Of a stretch of 64,000 nt of DNA, positions 29,127-64,000 are shown one piece after another. The notes under the pieces are model-generated. The model saw nothing but the letters and a program-made list of their open reading frames with translations, searched no databases and was not told the DNA's origin. The stretch is from IMG/VR virus record IMGVR_UViG_3300043409_002481, positions 1 through 64,000 of that record. The stretch is one strand, 5' to 3'. Made by a program: the position numbers and the translations under genes. The stretch is from a virus. Position 1 is the first letter of the stretch. Each line of letters begins with the position of its first letter.

Positions 29127-29500
29127 TAAGCTGCTTTTGCTTTACGCGCTAGCATTTTACGGGGGGGGGTAACAACATTCTGCCATAAGCGGCAAATAGC
29201 CTCTTTTTGCCCCGTAATACGGAATAGATCGCGTCCTTCAGCGCCAAATCCAGCGGCGCTACTCCCAATTTTAAAAAGAATTTGGTATTCATTCTCCCGA
29301 TACCAATAAAGGTTTACGGACAGATGTATATTTCCCTCTAGTGAGAGGGAAAACCCATGGCTACCCCAACAATCAGCGAGACTGCTTAGGCTAGCCAACA
29401 GCGCCGCGCTGTTGATGGGACTGCCAACAGCGTTTTTTAAGTCGCGTAATATGCTGTCAGGTAGCATAAATGATTCTGCGTTGTCATAGTTATATCTCAT
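29126..29500 (-). CDS. hypothetical protein upstream of 2H phosphoesterase
   Basis: 124 residues, begins MRYNYDNAESFMLPDSILRD; one helical and one beta region (NIHLSVNLYWYRENEYQILF). Its stop shares a base with the next start, so the two genes are coupled. No family recognised. Confidence 0.55.
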   Translation of the reverse strand: MRYNYDNAESFMLPDSILRDLKNAVGSPINSAALLASLSSLADCWGSHGFSLSLEGNIHLSVNLYWYRENEYQILFKIGSSAAGFGAEGRDLFRITGQKEAICRLWQNVVTPPRKMLARKAKAA

Positions 29501-37350: not shown

Positions 37351-37602
37351 ATGAAATCATGGGAACAGAAATCACTCGCAATCATTAACCCAACTGTGCA
37401 TTTATTGCGGAGCGATTGCGAGAACGGGACTATTACAGAGAAAGACTTGCGAAGGATTTTATCTAAAAAATATCCTTTCGGGCAAAGGGTAAACCATCCT
37501 TACAAAATTTGGTGCAAGTGTGTAAATCTTGCGATTGAGGATGTGTTTGCAGCAAAGCAAGAATCGCTAGAACAGCTTCCATTATTTGAGGTTGCGTCAT
37601 GA
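37351..37602 (+). CDS. hypothetical basic protein before methyltransferase
   Basis: 83 residues, begins MKSWEQKSLAIINPTVHLLR, basic. Four-base overlap with the methyltransferase start. Function unknown. Confidence 0.55.
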   Translation: MKSWEQKSLAIINPTVHLLRSDCENGTITEKDLRRILSKKYPFGQRVNHPYKIWCKCVNLAIEDVFAAKQESLEQLPLFEVAS

Positions 37603-38432
37603 GACGGCTCAAAATGATCAGCCTGTTCTCTGGCATAGGCGGATTTGAAGTAGCAGGGGAATGGGTCGGAATTGAAACACTTGAATCGGTTGAAATTAAC
37701 CCATTCTGCCAAAAAGTATTAAAGAAAAACTTTCCAAACACACCAATTTACAACGATGTCACCACATACAAGCCTCCGTCATACTGCGATCTCGTTGTTG
37801 GCGGATCGCCTTGTCAAGACCTTTCAATCGCAGGAGCGCAAAAAGGTATCATTGAAGGCAAACGATCAAGCCTATGGTTTGAGCAGCTACGAATCTACAA
37901 GGAAAGTGGAGCAACTTTCCTTATTTGGGAAAACGTCACAGGAGCTTTTCGCAACGGATTTAGAGAAGTTCTCAGGAGCCTTTCCGAAAGCGGGTACGAT
38001 GCGGAATGGCAAGTTATCAGCGCAGCCGCCCTTGGAGCGCCACACCTTAGAGAGCGAATTTTTCTCATTGCCTACCCCACAAGCTTACAGTTTTCAGCAG
38101 AGCCGCAGACCTGGGCAGACCAAATTGGATGTCAAGCTGCGATCGCTGCTTCCTACCCCTACAGTTTGCGGGAACCACAACCGCAAAGGAGCCAGCAAAA
38201 AAAGCGGAGACGGTCTAGTGACTGCATTGCAAAAGTTGCTCCCTACCCCAGATGCAAACGAAGGGAAGCGAGGAACTTGCTCAATAACAAGATTTCTCAA
38301 CACAAAAAAGCAAACTCATTTAGTGGATTATGTGAAACACAACCTGGGGCTACCTACTGGTCAAGTATTGAACCCCCAATTTGTGGAGTGGATGCAGGCT
38401 TCCCCATAGGGTGGACAGACTTGCAGCTTTAG
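37599..38432 (+). CDS. DNA cytosine-5 methyltransferase, 3' end frameshifted
   Basis: 277 residues as read. Motif I LFSGIGGFE (9-17), catalytic PC at 71-72 in GGSPCQDLS, ENV (111-113) and RERIF motif VIII (151-155) are intact. The usual end appears in another phase as HRVDRLAALGNAIVPQCAVV, ending at TAA 38504-38506. Adding one C to the CCCC run at 38402-38405 joins the frames to give GFPHRVDRLAALGNAIVPQ. The enzyme methylates cytosine, usually to evade restriction. As sequenced, the motif X region is lost. Confidence 0.85.
   Translation: MRRLKMISLFSGIGGFEVAGEWVGIETLESVEINPFCQKVLKKNFPNTPIYNDVTTYKPPSYCDLVVGGSPCQDLSIAGAQKGIIEGKRSSLWFEQLRIYKESGATFLIWENVTGAFRNGFREVLRSLSESGYDAEWQVISAAALGAPHLRERIFLIAYPTSLQFSAEPQTWADQIGCQAAIAASYPYSLREPQPQRSQQKKRRRSSDCIAKVAPYPRCKRREARNLLNNKISQHKKANSFSGLCETQPGATYWSSIEPPICGVDAGFPIGWTDLQL
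37756..38409 (+). CDS. overlapping methyltransferase-associated protein, second frame
   Basis: 217 codons in the +1 frame relative to the methyltransferase, with coding-like content: LFGKTSQELFATDLEKFSGA, FPKAGTMRNGKL, LLPTPTVCGNHNRKG, LNPQFVEWMQ. These phrases recur in phage proteins next to or overlapping cytosine methyltransferases. The same one-base correction at 38402-38405 extends it to FVEWMQASPIGWTDLQL and TAG 38430-38432, so both frames are restored together. The true start is unclear. Function unknown. Confidence 0.6.
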   Translation: MSPHTSLRHTAISLLADRLVKTFQSQERKKVSLKANDQAYGLSSYESTRKVEQLSLFGKTSQELFATDLEKFSGAFPKAGTMRNGKLSAQPPLERHTLESEFFSLPTPQAYSFQQSRRPGQTKLDVKLRSLLPTPTVCGNHNRKGASKKSGDGLVTALQKLLPTPDANEGKRGTCSITRFLNTKKQTHLVDYVKHNLGLPTGQVLNPQFVEWMQASP

Positions 38433-46981: not shown

Positions 46982-47155
46982 ATGAGTAACTTATCGCCCG
47001 AAAAAGAATTCACTCACATGATGTTTTGCCAACAAATCCAAAACATCGATCTAGATGCAGCTAAGCAGCTACTCACTGAGCTACATTTGCTGTATTTGGG
47101 GCAGCAAGCAGTATTTGCGAAGATTGCGAAAAATGAGTTTTTAGGAGGTATTTGA
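46982..47155 (+). CDS. nblA: NblA-like phycobilisome degradation protein
   Basis: 57 residues beginning MSNLSPEKEFTHMMFCQQIQ, then DAAKQLLTELHLLYLGQQAV. This fits NblA: an LS-x-E-x-F start, a Q-x(5)-D region, and a second helix ending in small and basic residues, total length near 60. NblA bridges phycobilisomes to Clp proteases; several cyanophages carry it. Followed closely by AGGAGG for the next gene. Assignment is by pattern, not by alignment. Confidence 0.62.
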   Translation: MSNLSPEKEFTHMMFCQQIQNIDLDAAKQLLTELHLLYLGQQAVFAKIAKNEFLGGI

Positions 47156-47157
47156 TT

Positions 47158-47712
47158 GTGATCACTTTACAGCCTAATCTATTCTCAATGTCTTTAGTCG
47201 TTACTGAAGAAGACAAAGACAACGATGAGAACTATACACCAGACCGAATCGTAAAACCATTCCGCGACTTGGTTGGAGGTTTCCACCTTGACGCTTTTTC
47301 ATGCGCTAGAGCTAACGAAATCATCCAAGCTAAACTTTATTTTACAAAAGCCGATGATGCATTTAGTCAGGATTTAACGGAGTTCTACAACAAGTGGTTT
47401 AATCCACCGTATTCAAAGGGCAACATTGACAGGGCTGTAGAGTTAGTTTTGAGCTATGCCCATATTGGGAATAGCTTTTTATTGGTCAACTCAAATACCT
47501 CTAGCAATTGGTTTATAGACGCTCAAAAATATTGTGTATGCCAACTAACTTTTGATCAAAGAATTGAGTTCACAAACCCTAAAAATGATGGGACTAAAAA
47601 AGATTCTGGCAACACCAAAGGGCAGACATTATTTTACCTTGGAGTGGACTACACACCCAAGCAAATCAAGGCTTGCTGTAAGCATCTTGGCAATGTATCG
47701 GTAACTATTTAG
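47158..47712 (+). CDS. DNA N6-adenine methyltransferase, phage Dam family
   Basis: 184 residues from GTG 47158 with AGGAGG nine bases upstream. WFNPPYSKG (NPPY at 82-85) is the catalytic motif of phage DNA N6-adenine methyltransferases; NYTPDRIVKPFRDLVGGFHL and LDAFSCARAN form the usual N-terminal part. It methylates adenines, probably to evade restriction. Together with the cytosine enzyme it gives the phage two modifications. Confidence 0.85.
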   Translation: MITLQPNLFSMSLVVTEEDKDNDENYTPDRIVKPFRDLVGGFHLDAFSCARANEIIQAKLYFTKADDAFSQDLTEFYNKWFNPPYSKGNIDRAVELVLSYAHIGNSFLLVNSNTSSNWFIDAQKYCVCQLTFDQRIEFTNPKNDGTKKDSGNTKGQTLFYLGVDYTPKQIKACCKHLGNVSVTI

Positions 47713-59895: not shown

Positions 59896-61347
59896 TTACA
59901 TAGCTCTACTACTGCCAAAGCTTGATTGACGATTAACAGGAGGCATAGATGCGATCGCATATCGCAAACAGTCGATACCATGTGTCACTTGGTTATCCGC
60001 CTCCTCCTCAGTGATGTTGCCATATTTATCCTTTTTGCGGTGATACGATTGGCACTCTTCAAAAAACTGAGGCAATGTGTCCACAATCTTGATTCGTTCG
60101 TGGTAAAAATCACTGCTCATTAAGTCAATGCCCTTGATAAAATCATTTACCGCGCCCCTGACTTCTGAGCAGTAATTCTTAAATGGCTCTTTAAATATTT
60201 GACCCTCTTTCGGTTTCCATACTCGCAATGATTTGATTGCATCTGGTCTAGATGGGTCACCAAAGGCTCTGTTAACTTGCCACTTCATTGCTAATTTATG
60301 GCACTCGTACAAAAAGTCATCTTCTAATATAGCCTGACCTTGCATTGTCCTAGGTACACGCCACTCATCAACTACAAACCAATGATAAAAGCCATCTTTG
60401 ATAAAGGCGCAAACCACTAAAGCCCTTGGATTTACCGCGCCCCAATCCACTGACAATATGCGATATGCAAACTCATTAGGTAAGTCGCGATCGCTGATGA
60501 TATGCCTAGCGCTTAGCGTCTCAAAGAATTGCCCCTCAAACATCTCAAAAGATGCTTCCATTTCTTGACGGAATAGCCTTGGTGACAAGCTTTGTCTAAG
60601 CAACTCAATGTCTTCTGGCTTGAGGTGTGGATTGTCTACGCTTTTAAATTTAAAAGCTTGCCATACCATCGGATCGGCTATGAGTGCATTTTCGTAAGCA
60701 TCATAGGTATGATTACTTTTACCTTTAGGTGTATAAGTGAATAGCGCTGTACTGCCTTGCGTATCAGATAATGCTGGCTGAATAATTTCAGGGAAAATAC
60801 TAGCTTTCCAGTCTTGCCACTCATCACCGCCAAAATGCCATAGGCGCAAACCACGAGCGCGATCGCCATCACCATCATTCAAACCCATAATCATGAGATC
60901 GGGCATATAGAACTTATACGGATCGGGGTTCTTAAAGGTAATCGTAAACTCTGATTTACTAACATTCTCGACAGCTTTGTGATTGCGTAGGATGTTTTGC
61001 AACTGCTTCCATAGCAGTCGCCTAGCCATAACCAAGGTAGGAGCAGCTAACACTACTACAGGCGGCGACACTGGATTGTATGGCGCACCAATCGCAACGC
61101 GCTCTAGGGCTTTGTATATCTGCAATACAGTTTTACCAAAACGCCGCCCTGACACTGCGATCGTGTATTTGGCGTGGCTATTGGCTATCGTTTGCTGTAA
61201 TGGATGTAACTGTATCTTCTGCTGTTGCGAGTATGTCTGAGAACGGGTTTGTTTCTGAGCTATCTGAGTCTCTACCTTTTCCCAAGCTCTTTCCATCCGA
61301 GCCTGTGTCGCTGGTAAGAGTTCTAGGATCGGTGAGAAGGTAGCCAA
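59896..61347 (-). CDS. terL: terminase large subunit
   Basis: 483 residues. ATPase: Walker A SGRRFGKT (66-73), Walker B HFGGDEW (D175, E176). C-terminal RNase-H-like nuclease begins ILSVDWGAVNP (D301), with later acidic residues (AFGDPSRPDA; VTHGIDCLRYA). It cuts concatemers and pumps DNA into the head. The first 57 codons overlap the small-subunit gene, so its true start may lie a little downstream. Confidence 0.93.
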   Translation of the reverse strand: MATFSPILELLPATQARMERAWEKVETQIAQKQTRSQTYSQQQKIQLHPLQQTIANSHAKYTIAVSGRRFGKTVLQIYKALERVAIGAPYNPVSPPVVVLAAPTLVMARRLLWKQLQNILRNHKAVENVSKSEFTITFKNPDPYKFYMPDLMIMGLNDGDGDRARGLRLWHFGGDEWQDWKASIFPEIIQPALSDTQGSTALFTYTPKGKSNHTYDAYENALIADPMVWQAFKFKSVDNPHLKPEDIELLRQSLSPRLFRQEMEASFEMFEGQFFETLSARHIISDRDLPNEFAYRILSVDWGAVNPRALVVCAFIKDGFYHWFVVDEWRVPRTMQGQAILEDDFLYECHKLAMKWQVNRAFGDPSRPDAIKSLRVWKPKEGQIFKEPFKNYCSEVRGAVNDFIKGIDLMSSDFYHERIKIVDTLPQFFEECQSYHRKKDKYGNITEEEADNQVTHGIDCLRYAIASMPPVNRQSSFGSSRAM

Positions 61348-61789
61348 GTTTTAATGCCTCATTTACGATTTTGTCTGGCGACCATGTATCAAGGTCTAAT
61401 GCTGTCCGTCCGATGCGTTGGATAGTGGATAGAGAGCCAGATAACAGGCTTATATCCTTTGTTGCTAACAGTGTTTTATTAACCTTAGCTTCATTCAAAT
61501 GTCCAATTATCTGCCCTTGTAATGCCCTCGCAACAGTCAAGATATCAGCATCAAACTTAGTTTGCTCCCCTGCTAGGCTTGATACTTTTTCTTGCTTTGA
61601 CTCTTGAGATACACGCCTCAAGAATATCTTAGATTGCTCTACCCATTTGTCTTTTGACGATCTTTGCTGAATATAATTAAGGCTCATCCCATACTTTGTA
61701 GCTAAACTTTGCAAAGATGGGCGTGTATCATCGCTAGGGGCTTCTATATACTCCTTACTAATTTTATCCCAATCATGTTTTGATGCCAT
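61178..61789 (-). CDS. terS: terminase small subunit candidate
   Basis: 203 residues directly upstream of terL. N-terminal ISKEYIEAPSDDTRPSLQSL and KYGMSLNYIQQRSSKDKWVE form a DNA-binding helix-turn-helix; the middle (DISLLSGSLSTIQRIGRTAL) is an oligomerisation helix region. The last 170 bases overlap terL in another frame. It would recognise the packaging site. Confidence 0.75.
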   Translation of the reverse strand: MASKHDWDKISKEYIEAPSDDTRPSLQSLATKYGMSLNYIQQRSSKDKWVEQSKIFLRRVSQESKQEKVSSLAGEQTKFDADILTVARALQGQIIGHLNEAKVNKTLLATKDISLLSGSLSTIQRIGRTALDLDTWSPDKIVNEALKLGYLLTDPRTLTSDTGSDGKSLGKGRDSDSSETNPFSDILATAEDTVTSITANDSQ

Positions 61790-61865: not shown

Positions 61866-62216
61866 TTATCTAGAAGTTCCATATTTCGCAAATTCAGATC
61901 CCGCATCATAAATTTTCCCAGAACCTCCACCCATGCCATTAGTACCAGTAGCGCTTCTAGCATTCACTGTAATCAACCGTTTAGCCTTACCTCGTTCTTG
62001 CTGGGTAGAATTCGGGTTTTTAAGAATAGCTTGATTTTTAGCAATATTACCAGCCGACGCTCCAAACTTAGACTCAACACTACTACGCTGACCTACAGCG
62101 CTACGCTTAGCGCCGCCTCCACCACCGCCTCCCTTCTTGAACCGACCACTCATCTTTGCGGGATCATTACCACCGTAATACTGAACACCGTTGCTATTGT
62201 CTAATGATTCCAACAT
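61866..62216 (-). CDS. basic protein sharing an N-terminal signature with 63442-63801
   Basis: 116 residues from ATG 62216. The start (ESLDNSNGVQYYGGNDPAKM then SGRFKKGG) is almost the same as in 63442-63801; then it diverges into a Gly/Lys/Asn-rich basic end. It overlaps the radical-SAM stop by 23 bases. A precursor-peptide-like leader is one reading; a capsid- or DNA-binding tag is another. Confidence 0.65.
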   Translation of the reverse strand: MLESLDNSNGVQYYGGNDPAKMSGRFKKGGGGGGGAKRSAVGQRSSVESKFGASAGNIAKNQAILKNPNSTQQERGKAKRLITVNARSATGTNGMGGGSGKIYDAGSEFAKYGTSR

Positions 62217-63438
62217 AATCGACCTCATTAATTTCATTATCATCATACTCAATCATAGTATGAGTCCATCCATCCGCGCCATAACATAGTATAGGCAATT
62301 TATCCACATCATCTAACAAATAATTACCATTGCTGTCTACAGCATAGCTGAAAGCAGCTTTGTTGACTGGATGAAAAGGTACGTTATGAGACTTCAAAGA
62401 GCATTTTAAGATTGTCTCAAATGTTGGATTCTTAGGCACTTTAAAACCTAACGCTTTCTCAGGACACATTCTAACATTGCTATCGATATAGTGATAATTT
62501 TGTGATGTAACAAATGTGGGTAGTAATGGAGTAAAGAACTCTACCCATTCCCGTTGCGTGAAAAACTCACGGTTTAACGTAGCACACCGATTAATAAATT
62601 GCTGAACAACTGGGAATAATTTCGGGTACATCTTATAAGCGTCAAAAAAGTTTGAATACTTACCATTAGCAATACTGTAATTCTCTAACCCTATTGAGCT
62701 TGAATATTCACGACACATCTCTACAAATTCTTTCCTGTAAGGATCGCTATGTTTCTTCTTGAGGCAATCACTAATTAAATCTTCGCCTAATAACTTGCGA
62801 TCGCGATCTGACATTACCTTTTTCTGCTTAGTATTGATGTGCAGATTCTCCATCCATGTACCAAACACACCGATCTCTTTTAGCCGATCAAAGAACGGGA
62901 TAGGGTCTAATAACCAGTCAGGCTCGCAAGGGTTACATCCAACGATTACCGTATGACCTTTTGCGATCAAAGCTTCTAATAATTCATAGCGATGCTCTAA
63001 AGGCGGTGCGCTAGGCTCTATGGATTTGCGTGTTTCATCATCAGAGAAAGAGATCGACACATACCAAACACCAATCGGCATAAACTCTAATACCTTTTCC
63101 CATCCTTTACCGCCCTTGGTTTGCACAGAGTAAGGTATACCAAGCTCTGTCATGGTTCCCATAAAAGGAACCATTTGACGATAATTTGAAGCACTAAACG
63201 GGTCTATGTGGTTGCTAACAATTACAGGATAGCCGTCTCTCAGTAAATATCCCTCTATGGTATTTCTATTTTGATAATCAGCTAATAGCCTTGATACGCC
63301 CTTAACGTCAAGTGTACGAGTAGGACTATTAAGATTTGCGAAACAGTAGGCGCAAGCGTGAGCACACCAATTACCGCTTAATTCTAGGGGTGCGGGTATC
63401 TTAAGCAAACCGCCGTAAAGAGGCTTTAATCCATCCAT
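62194..63438 (-). CDS. radical SAM protein, phage type
   Basis: 414 residues. C25-AHA-C29-AY-C32 (NWCAHACAYCFANL) is the CxxxCxxC site for a 4Fe-4S cluster that splits S-adenosylmethionine; PAPLELSGNW precedes it. Later TKGGKGWEKVLEF and SISFSDDETRKSIEPSAPP match the barrel. Such SPL-like proteins occur in phage genomes with unknown substrates. It lies between two small proteins sharing an N-terminal signature, three bases from the upstream one. Confidence 0.82.
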   Translation of the reverse strand: MDGLKPLYGGLLKIPAPLELSGNWCAHACAYCFANLNSPTRTLDVKGVSRLLADYQNRNTIEGYLLRDGYPVIVSNHIDPFSASNYRQMVPFMGTMTELGIPYSVQTKGGKGWEKVLEFMPIGVWYVSISFSDDETRKSIEPSAPPLEHRYELLEALIAKGHTVIVGCNPCEPDWLLDPIPFFDRLKEIGVFGTWMENLHINTKQKKVMSDRDRKLLGEDLISDCLKKKHSDPYRKEFVEMCREYSSSIGLENYSIANGKYSNFFDAYKMYPKLFPVVQQFINRCATLNREFFTQREWVEFFTPLLPTFVTSQNYHYIDSNVRMCPEKALGFKVPKNPTFETILKCSLKSHNVPFHPVNKAAFSYAVDSNGNYLLDDVDKLPILCYGADGWTHTMIEYDDNEINEVDYVGIIRQ

Positions 63439-63441
63439 GTT

Positions 63442-63801
63442 TTATTTAAAAAGGTTGAGTTGTCCTTGCCTTTCAAGTCTAGCGGATTGAATACTAGCAT
63501 TACGAGAAATATCACCTGAAGTCATGGCGCGTTTTTGAAATAGTGTTTTCTCTCCTTTGACGCGAGTATATGCCCGTTTACCCTTCCCTTGTATTGTGGC
63601 AATCGCGATTTTGTTGTTACGAATATCTCTAAGCAATTTACCAGTTTTTTTCTTTATACCTCTTTTGTTTAGACCCTTTACATTCATTAACAGTCGAGTC
63701 CCCCCCCCCGATCCTCCCTTCTTGAACCGACCACTCATCTTCTTAGGATCGTTCCCGCCGTAATACTGAGTACCGTCACTGTTGTCTAGCGATCGCACCA
63801 T
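63442..63801 (-). CDS. basic protein sharing an N-terminal signature with 61866-62216
   Basis: 119 residues from ATG 63801 (in-frame ATG 63810 is possible). Start RSLDNSDGTQYYGGNDPKKM then SGRFKKGG, like the other; the remainder is very basic (GLNKRGIKKKTGKLLRD; RGQLNLFK-like end). At DNA level the signature region has a 29-base identical stretch with the other copy. Function unknown. Confidence 0.65.
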   Translation of the reverse strand: MVRSLDNSDGTQYYGGNDPKKMSGRFKKGGSGGGTRLLMNVKGLNKRGIKKKTGKLLRDIRNNKIAIATIQGKGKRAYTRVKGEKTLFQKRAMTSGDISRNASIQSARLERQGQLNLFK

Positions 63802-63811
63802 AATAATCACC

Positions 63812-64000
63812 TTAGATCTCTTGAGATTCTAGCAGCATTTCAAACGCAGCAGTATCATTTTTTATCCCAATACTTTCCTTATACTCATTCCATCTTTGCA
63901 TAGTGCGACTGCCAACGACAATCGGTATAGGCTGCTTGTTGCCGCCACTGCGATCGCTTGCGTATGCTGGTAAGTCATTATTGTCTGAGAACTTGAGAAA
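63812..64000 (-). CDS. C-terminal end of unidentified protein, cut by window edge
   Basis: The last 62 codons to TAA 63812-63814 are visible (SDRSGGNKQPIPIVVG; TMQRWNEYKESIGI; AFEMLLESQEI). Mixed alpha/beta. The start is beyond 64000. Confidence 0.55.
   Translation of the reverse strand, partial: FLKFSDNNDLPAYASDRSGGNKQPIPIVVGSRTMQRWNEYKESIGIKNDTAAFEMLLESQEI

Follow-up and report, generated by a model that had tools for sequence, protein, structure and literature searches.

We analysed a 64,000-nucleotide stretch of viral DNA (the window: bases 1-64000 of the 75,699-bp IMG/VR record IMGVR_UViG_3300043409_002481), for which GCGATCGC-type sites, judged by eye, suggest a cyanobacterial host. 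Near its end lies a cassette transcribed from the minus strand in the order ParB-like gene, signature protein A (sigA), radical S-adenosylmethionine (SAM) enzyme (rSAM), signature protein B (sigB), terminase small subunit-like gene (TerS) and terminase large subunit gene (TerL). Its features are as follows (aa, amino acids; pI, isoelectric point).

63812..64000, extending to record position 64459, minus strand: ParB-like gene that opens the cassette (a 215-aa open reading frame (ORF) in L003)
63442..63801, minus strand: sigA, 119 aa, pI 11.3, without Pfam or PHROG match
63712..63801, minus strand: leader of A, MVRSLDNSDGTQYYGGNDPKKMSGRFKKGG
63700..63709, minus strand: poly-G10 tract where leader and cargo of A meet, a possible slippage site
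62194..63438, minus strand: rSAM, 414 aa, assigned from Pfam, an AlphaFold2 model and PDB fold matches
63343..63366, minus strand: CxxxCxxC iron-sulfur/SAM site (C25, C29, C32), no other cysteine being invariant across 33 homologues
61866..62216, minus strand: sigB, 116 aa, pI 10.3, its start overlapping the rSAM 3' end
62127..62216, minus strand: leader of B, MLESLDNSNGVQYYGGNDPAKMSGRFKKGG
61178..61789, minus strand: TerS, with weak PHROG terminase small subunit matches (best E=1e-4)
59896..61347, minus strand: TerL (PHROG 2, E=7e-32)

Spacing within the cassette is tight. The rSAM start lies 3 nt past the sigA stop, and sigB begins within the end of the rSAM gene (ATG at 62216, with GAGG upstream); sigA has its ATG at 63801 and a ribosome-binding site, AAGGTG, at 63808-63813. 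The original prediction, read from the letters alone, had placed at 62194-63810 an enzyme with a CxxxCxxC radical SAM site between two proteins of the same N-terminal signature, beside terminase genes. All three genes are present and co-directional, the site is there, and TerS and TerL come directly after sigB. The interval covers sigA and rSAM, but sigB (61866-62216) lies mostly outside it.

The two leaders, SLDNSDGTQYYGGNDPKKMSGRFKKGG and SLDNSNGVQYYGGNDPAKMSGRFKKGG, stand at the very N-terminus of the signature proteins. They agree in 24 of 27 residues, and behind them follow unrelated bodies, just as the predicted run of about 26 near-identical residues followed by full divergence would have it. 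The consensus of this leader type is SLDNSNGxQYYGGNDPxKMSGRFKKGG, and the start Met is invariant in 9/9 aligned proteins. Across 12 copies (the window and six IMG/VR contigs), the proportion of synonymous differences (pS) is 0.64, near saturation, and that of nonsynonymous differences (pN) is 0.049; the two leaders of L006 share all 27 residues and differ by 12 synonymous changes. As synonymous sites are near-saturated and pN is low, selection acts strongly on the leader peptide itself. Between the window and L004, L005, L006 and L007, rSAM is 97-98% identical; in sigA, the body is unrelated in L006 and L007 and partly shared in L004. Together, low pN against high pS and unrelated bodies strongly support the predicted 'constant leader plus variable core'. 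No Pfam, PHROG or PADLOC family was found for the basic (pI 10-11) signature proteins; thus the signature does not appear to belong to a known head protein family, the outcome that the original prediction had named as evidence against itself. For sigB, disorder is predicted over most of the chain, except for one helical hairpin at 48-89.

The enzyme matches Pfam Radical_SAM at E=1e-6, slightly short of the Pfam cut-off. Its cluster motif, together with the partial TIM-barrel core of the AlphaFold2 model (pLDDT 89.8), places it in the radical SAM superfamily. Matches to the model over the core among PDB folds include pyruvate formate-lyase activating enzyme (PFL-AE; one entry with peptide substrate), spore photoproduct lyase (SPL), SuiB, viperin and SkfB. 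Of these radical SAM enzymes, PFL-AE and SuiB act on peptides; because the matches span PFL-AE, SPL, SuiB and viperin, the fold leaves the substrate unsettled. Beyond the three cysteines of the cluster, none is invariant among the 33 sequences, neither one of the SPASM/Twitch auxiliary-cluster kind nor a counterpart of the SPL catalytic cysteine (B. subtilis C141). Among NCBIfam equivalogs, Rv2578c (NF038135) fits the core (residues 25-173) best, but scores 28.1 bits against a cut-off of 430.

A profile search recovered 33 viral loci, with identity at 28-43% for the distant members; four more relatives came from metagenome-assembled genomes (MAGs) or genomes. A tblastn search with the enzyme and sigB against cultured phages gave no match, a plasmid search gave only weak Rv2578c-type matches, and a first scan of genome contigs with close relatives found nothing. 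In cyanobacterial genomes, the enzyme occurred in 1/386 and the YYGGNDP tag in 0/373.

The same layout recurs in unrelated phages and MAGs with other leaders, namely TEENLQCG, GTAKGTAKG and MAAxGGHWxK (GGHW). At L049, proteins on both sides of the enzyme carry the tag xExTEENLQCGFSGTPKGG: the preceding one has an ADP-ribosyltransferase (ART) domain, and the one that follows is a different protein. L033 has two copies of the TEENLQCG leader. Three GNAT-like proteins tagged GTAKGTAKG surround the enzyme at L058. Three GGHW-tagged proteins are present at L031, the third with an ART domain, and L057 and L085 show the GGHW layout likewise. Bodies behind leaders range over 85-580 aa and some are enzyme domains: ART at L049 (E=8e-7) and L031 (9e-12), in cores of 242 and 607 aa, and GNAT at L058 (8e-5) and in the Chloroflexi array C429 described below (2e-5). 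A JAB-type domain in tagged proteins was a weak match (0.03). The L049 ART domain also matches a minor head protein PHROG (1e-24). Most loci, by eye, have ParB-like genes before and terminase genes after the enzyme; ParB_N was matched at E<0.001 in 5 of 10 tested. Directly after the enzyme, several other loci carry a putative ORF of 30-60 aa, rich in Gly, Arg and Lys.

A Chloroflexi MAG contig, L126, holds one enzyme amid eleven genes with MAAxGGHWxK tags. The first 10 aa of the tagged proteins are 86% identical; their bodies have 7% positional identity, and homology was seen in a single body pair out of 55. C429, a second array from the same MAG, has eight orthologous bodies at 85-95%; relative to L126, one body has been replaced and one GNAT body added, with the tags intact. 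C493, whose enzyme is truncated, is probably a continuation of this array. Across 400 Chloroflexi genomes, the GGHW pattern occurred 24 times in the enzyme-bearing MAG and once, by chance, elsewhere. A GGHW match in G522 was rejected because it sits in an unrelated gene region.

To see whether tags occur apart from the enzyme, we searched IMG/VR by tag alone and then looked for an adjacent enzyme. It was found in 6/6 related contigs for YYGGNDP, whose remaining matches were unrelated ORFs, in 3/3 for GGHW and in 2/2 for TEENLQCG; the contigs are few, and those with YYGGNDP, six in all, are closely related. The GGHW search also recovered the L085/L087 enzyme, which enzyme-first searches had missed. 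A TEENLQCG match in L090 was an antisense chance match, and the low-complexity GTAKGTAKG search was uninformative, as it picked up a repeated phage protein that is unrelated and not accompanied by the enzyme. Had signature proteins turned up apart from the enzyme, this would have counted against the original prediction; the adjacent enzymes, and the Chloroflexi leader and enzyme occurring in the same MAG only, favour it. The head genes behave differently: identity of the portal falls to 33% in L007 and L009, where TerL differs too, whereas rSAM is 98-99.5% identical and the leader is kept, indicating that the leader follows the enzyme and not the head.

Overall, these data suggest a leader-tagged cargo module of the phage packaging locus, in which rSAM would modify the leader of effector cargo; we give this reading a probability of about 0.5. 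The enzyme would recognise the short constant N-terminal leader of otherwise unrelated proteins and modify it, and leader plus flexible Gly-rich linker would mark these proteins as one class, whose members would most likely be effectors or small basic proteins packaged along with the genome and passed on to the host. On the sequence side, this is suggested by the selected leader, the enzyme neighbourhood of three leader types, body replacement, effector-type domains and placement at the terminase genes. That the enzyme acts on the leader is probable, and that tagged proteins are virion-delivered is an evenly balanced proposition. ART and GNAT are domain types typical of virion-delivered polyvalent effectors (PMC5512222), and with the minor head protein match of the L049 ART domain they point to effectors delivered with the genome. 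The published polyvalent effectors (PMC5512222) share the domain kinds (ART, GNAT, JAB/RadC, kinase) and the ParB-like and virion-gene context; unlike them, the proteins here are single-domain, share a tag instead of being fused, and lie with a radical SAM enzyme.

Several observations weigh against this reading. No effector domain could be recognised in the cargo of the window itself, ART and GNAT being found in the relatives L049, L031, L058 and C429; L005 is without sigA; no modification residue common to the leader types is evident; and the enzyme model fits SPL or viperin equally well. An enzyme subclade (L041, L046, L048, L050, L059, L060) has the ParB/terminase neighbourhood with no leader protein found nearby, so the enzyme-leader link is not universal. 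In the enzyme tree, which has many weak forks, the GGHW enzymes are not monophyletic. TerS (~81-84%) and ParB also travel with the module, and TerS is therefore a possible partner of the tag.

One alternative takes the leader as a capsid-loading tag read by a head or packaging protein, with rSAM a co-transferred neighbour doing another job. Its models are the T4 capsid-targeting sequence and the N-terminal loading signals of contractile injection systems. As in T4 internal proteins and Alt, varied proteins encoded close to head genes, basic or ADP-ribosylating, begin with a short conserved N-terminal leader. The T4 leader is cut by the prohead protease and its sequence is unrelated to the present ones; to our knowledge, T4 uses no radical SAM enzyme for capsid targeting. 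The alternative would account for basic, partly disordered, Gly-rich proteins adjoining TerS and TerL, for ART and GNAT cargo resembling virion-delivered proteins and for enzyme loci without leaders. It is at odds with the retention of leader and rSAM in L007 and L009 despite strongly different portal and TerL, with three leader types found only beside this enzyme and with a Chloroflexi leader and enzyme that co-reside in one genome of 400, and we consider it unlikely. More improbable still is that the constant N-terminus is no protein signal but a conserved DNA segment for cassette exchange. Bodies do swap beneath a constant segment, but the saturated synonymous sites of a constant protein led us to reject this account on codon analysis.

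The other alternatives concern the chemistry. A DNA-modifying or DNA-repairing enzyme, SPL-like or of the Yuavirus thymidine hypermodification type with the leader proteins as passengers, seems rather improbable. The Yuavirus LKO4 'DNA repair photolyase' shares the radical SAM core (~26% identity), adjoins TerS and lies near thymidylate synthase; SPL is among the top folds, and ParB and methylase genes are nearby. Against this, the SPL catalytic cysteine is absent, thymidylate synthase (PF00303) was missing from 12 records with the enzyme (controls positive; the records may be fragments), and leader selection and leader-enzyme co-occurrence would stay unexplained. Still more doubtful is a radical SAM pathway for ribosomally synthesised and post-translationally modified peptides (RiPPs), in which the tagged proteins would be precursors and modified cores would be released as a small product. 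A maturase adjoining genes with conserved leader and hypervariable part is the layout of SuiB, SkfB and the sactipeptides, the first two being among the fold matches, and the 30-60 aa Gly/Arg-rich ORFs right behind the enzyme in several loci would fit short cores. Many cores are full-size, however, including the ART (242 and 607 aa) and GNAT enzymes; the tag is conserved and the core is not; SPASM-type extra cysteines are lacking; the setting is a phage packaging locus; and no RiPP peptidase or exporter was recognised by eye in the neighbourhoods, which were not searched systematically. The original interpretation is supported in part: the constant leader with variable core stands, modification of the signature proteins by the enzyme is probable, and a standard modified-peptide reading does not fit. 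The module is not a standard RiPP system, a spore photoproduct lyase or a known head protein. No known system that we compared pairs a radical SAM enzyme with a shared tag on unrelated full-size proteins, and literature searches found no description of such a module, for phage heads or for radical SAM enzymes.

In three leader genes, a run of 9-10 G marks the junction of leader and cargo (window 63700-63709; L004 7572 gene, offset 95; L085 764 gene, offset 35). In the loci examined, 3/7 G runs of at least 8 lie at such junctions against 0.08 expected, an enrichment to be read knowing that Gly-rich linkers favour G runs and that two of the three genes are homologous. In L085/L087 the reading frame is shifted after the run. 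Phase variation by slippage is possible. The sole further G/C homopolymer of at least 9 in the window is a G9 run at 29161.

Neighbouring genes vary. The window ParB-like protein falls below the Pfam threshold; homologues in the same slot match ParB_N, with 66-96% identity in relatives. At L005 6072-7998 there are two consecutive ParB-like genes, with sigA missing between ParB and enzyme, and in L042, L043 and L047 a DNA methyltransferase gene replaces ParB immediately upstream of the enzyme. L053, L054 and L055, whose enzymes are relatives of that of L049, have a gene truncated at about residue 115 that runs on into ParB-like sequence; the TEENLQCG leader was not found in these loci. In the leaderless L041, L046, L050 and L059, the enzyme is followed immediately by a small gene on the opposite strand (VGLPPExYxxVxxGxKxxxxTKRNPRKDRYF), common to these loci. 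Methyltransferase genes (C5-cytosine, Dam, N4/N6 type) lie at 37599-38429 and 47152-47709 of the window and at L003 13642-14307, and a dCTP deaminase-like gene lies elsewhere in L003, assignments made partly by eye.

The leader-tagged cargo module might, tentatively, be a general phage system, in which rSAM modifies an N-terminal address tag and thereby turns unrelated effectors into virion-loaded or activated cargo, with up to eleven exchangeable payloads and, in some phages, poly-G switching. If so, radical chemistry on an address tag would define a phage cargo class, and an uncharacterised radical SAM group would gain a function. The tag would serve as bait for virion-delivered effectors, for which the Chloroflexi array alone offers eleven candidates, and a portable tag plus enzyme may help to load proteins into capsids.
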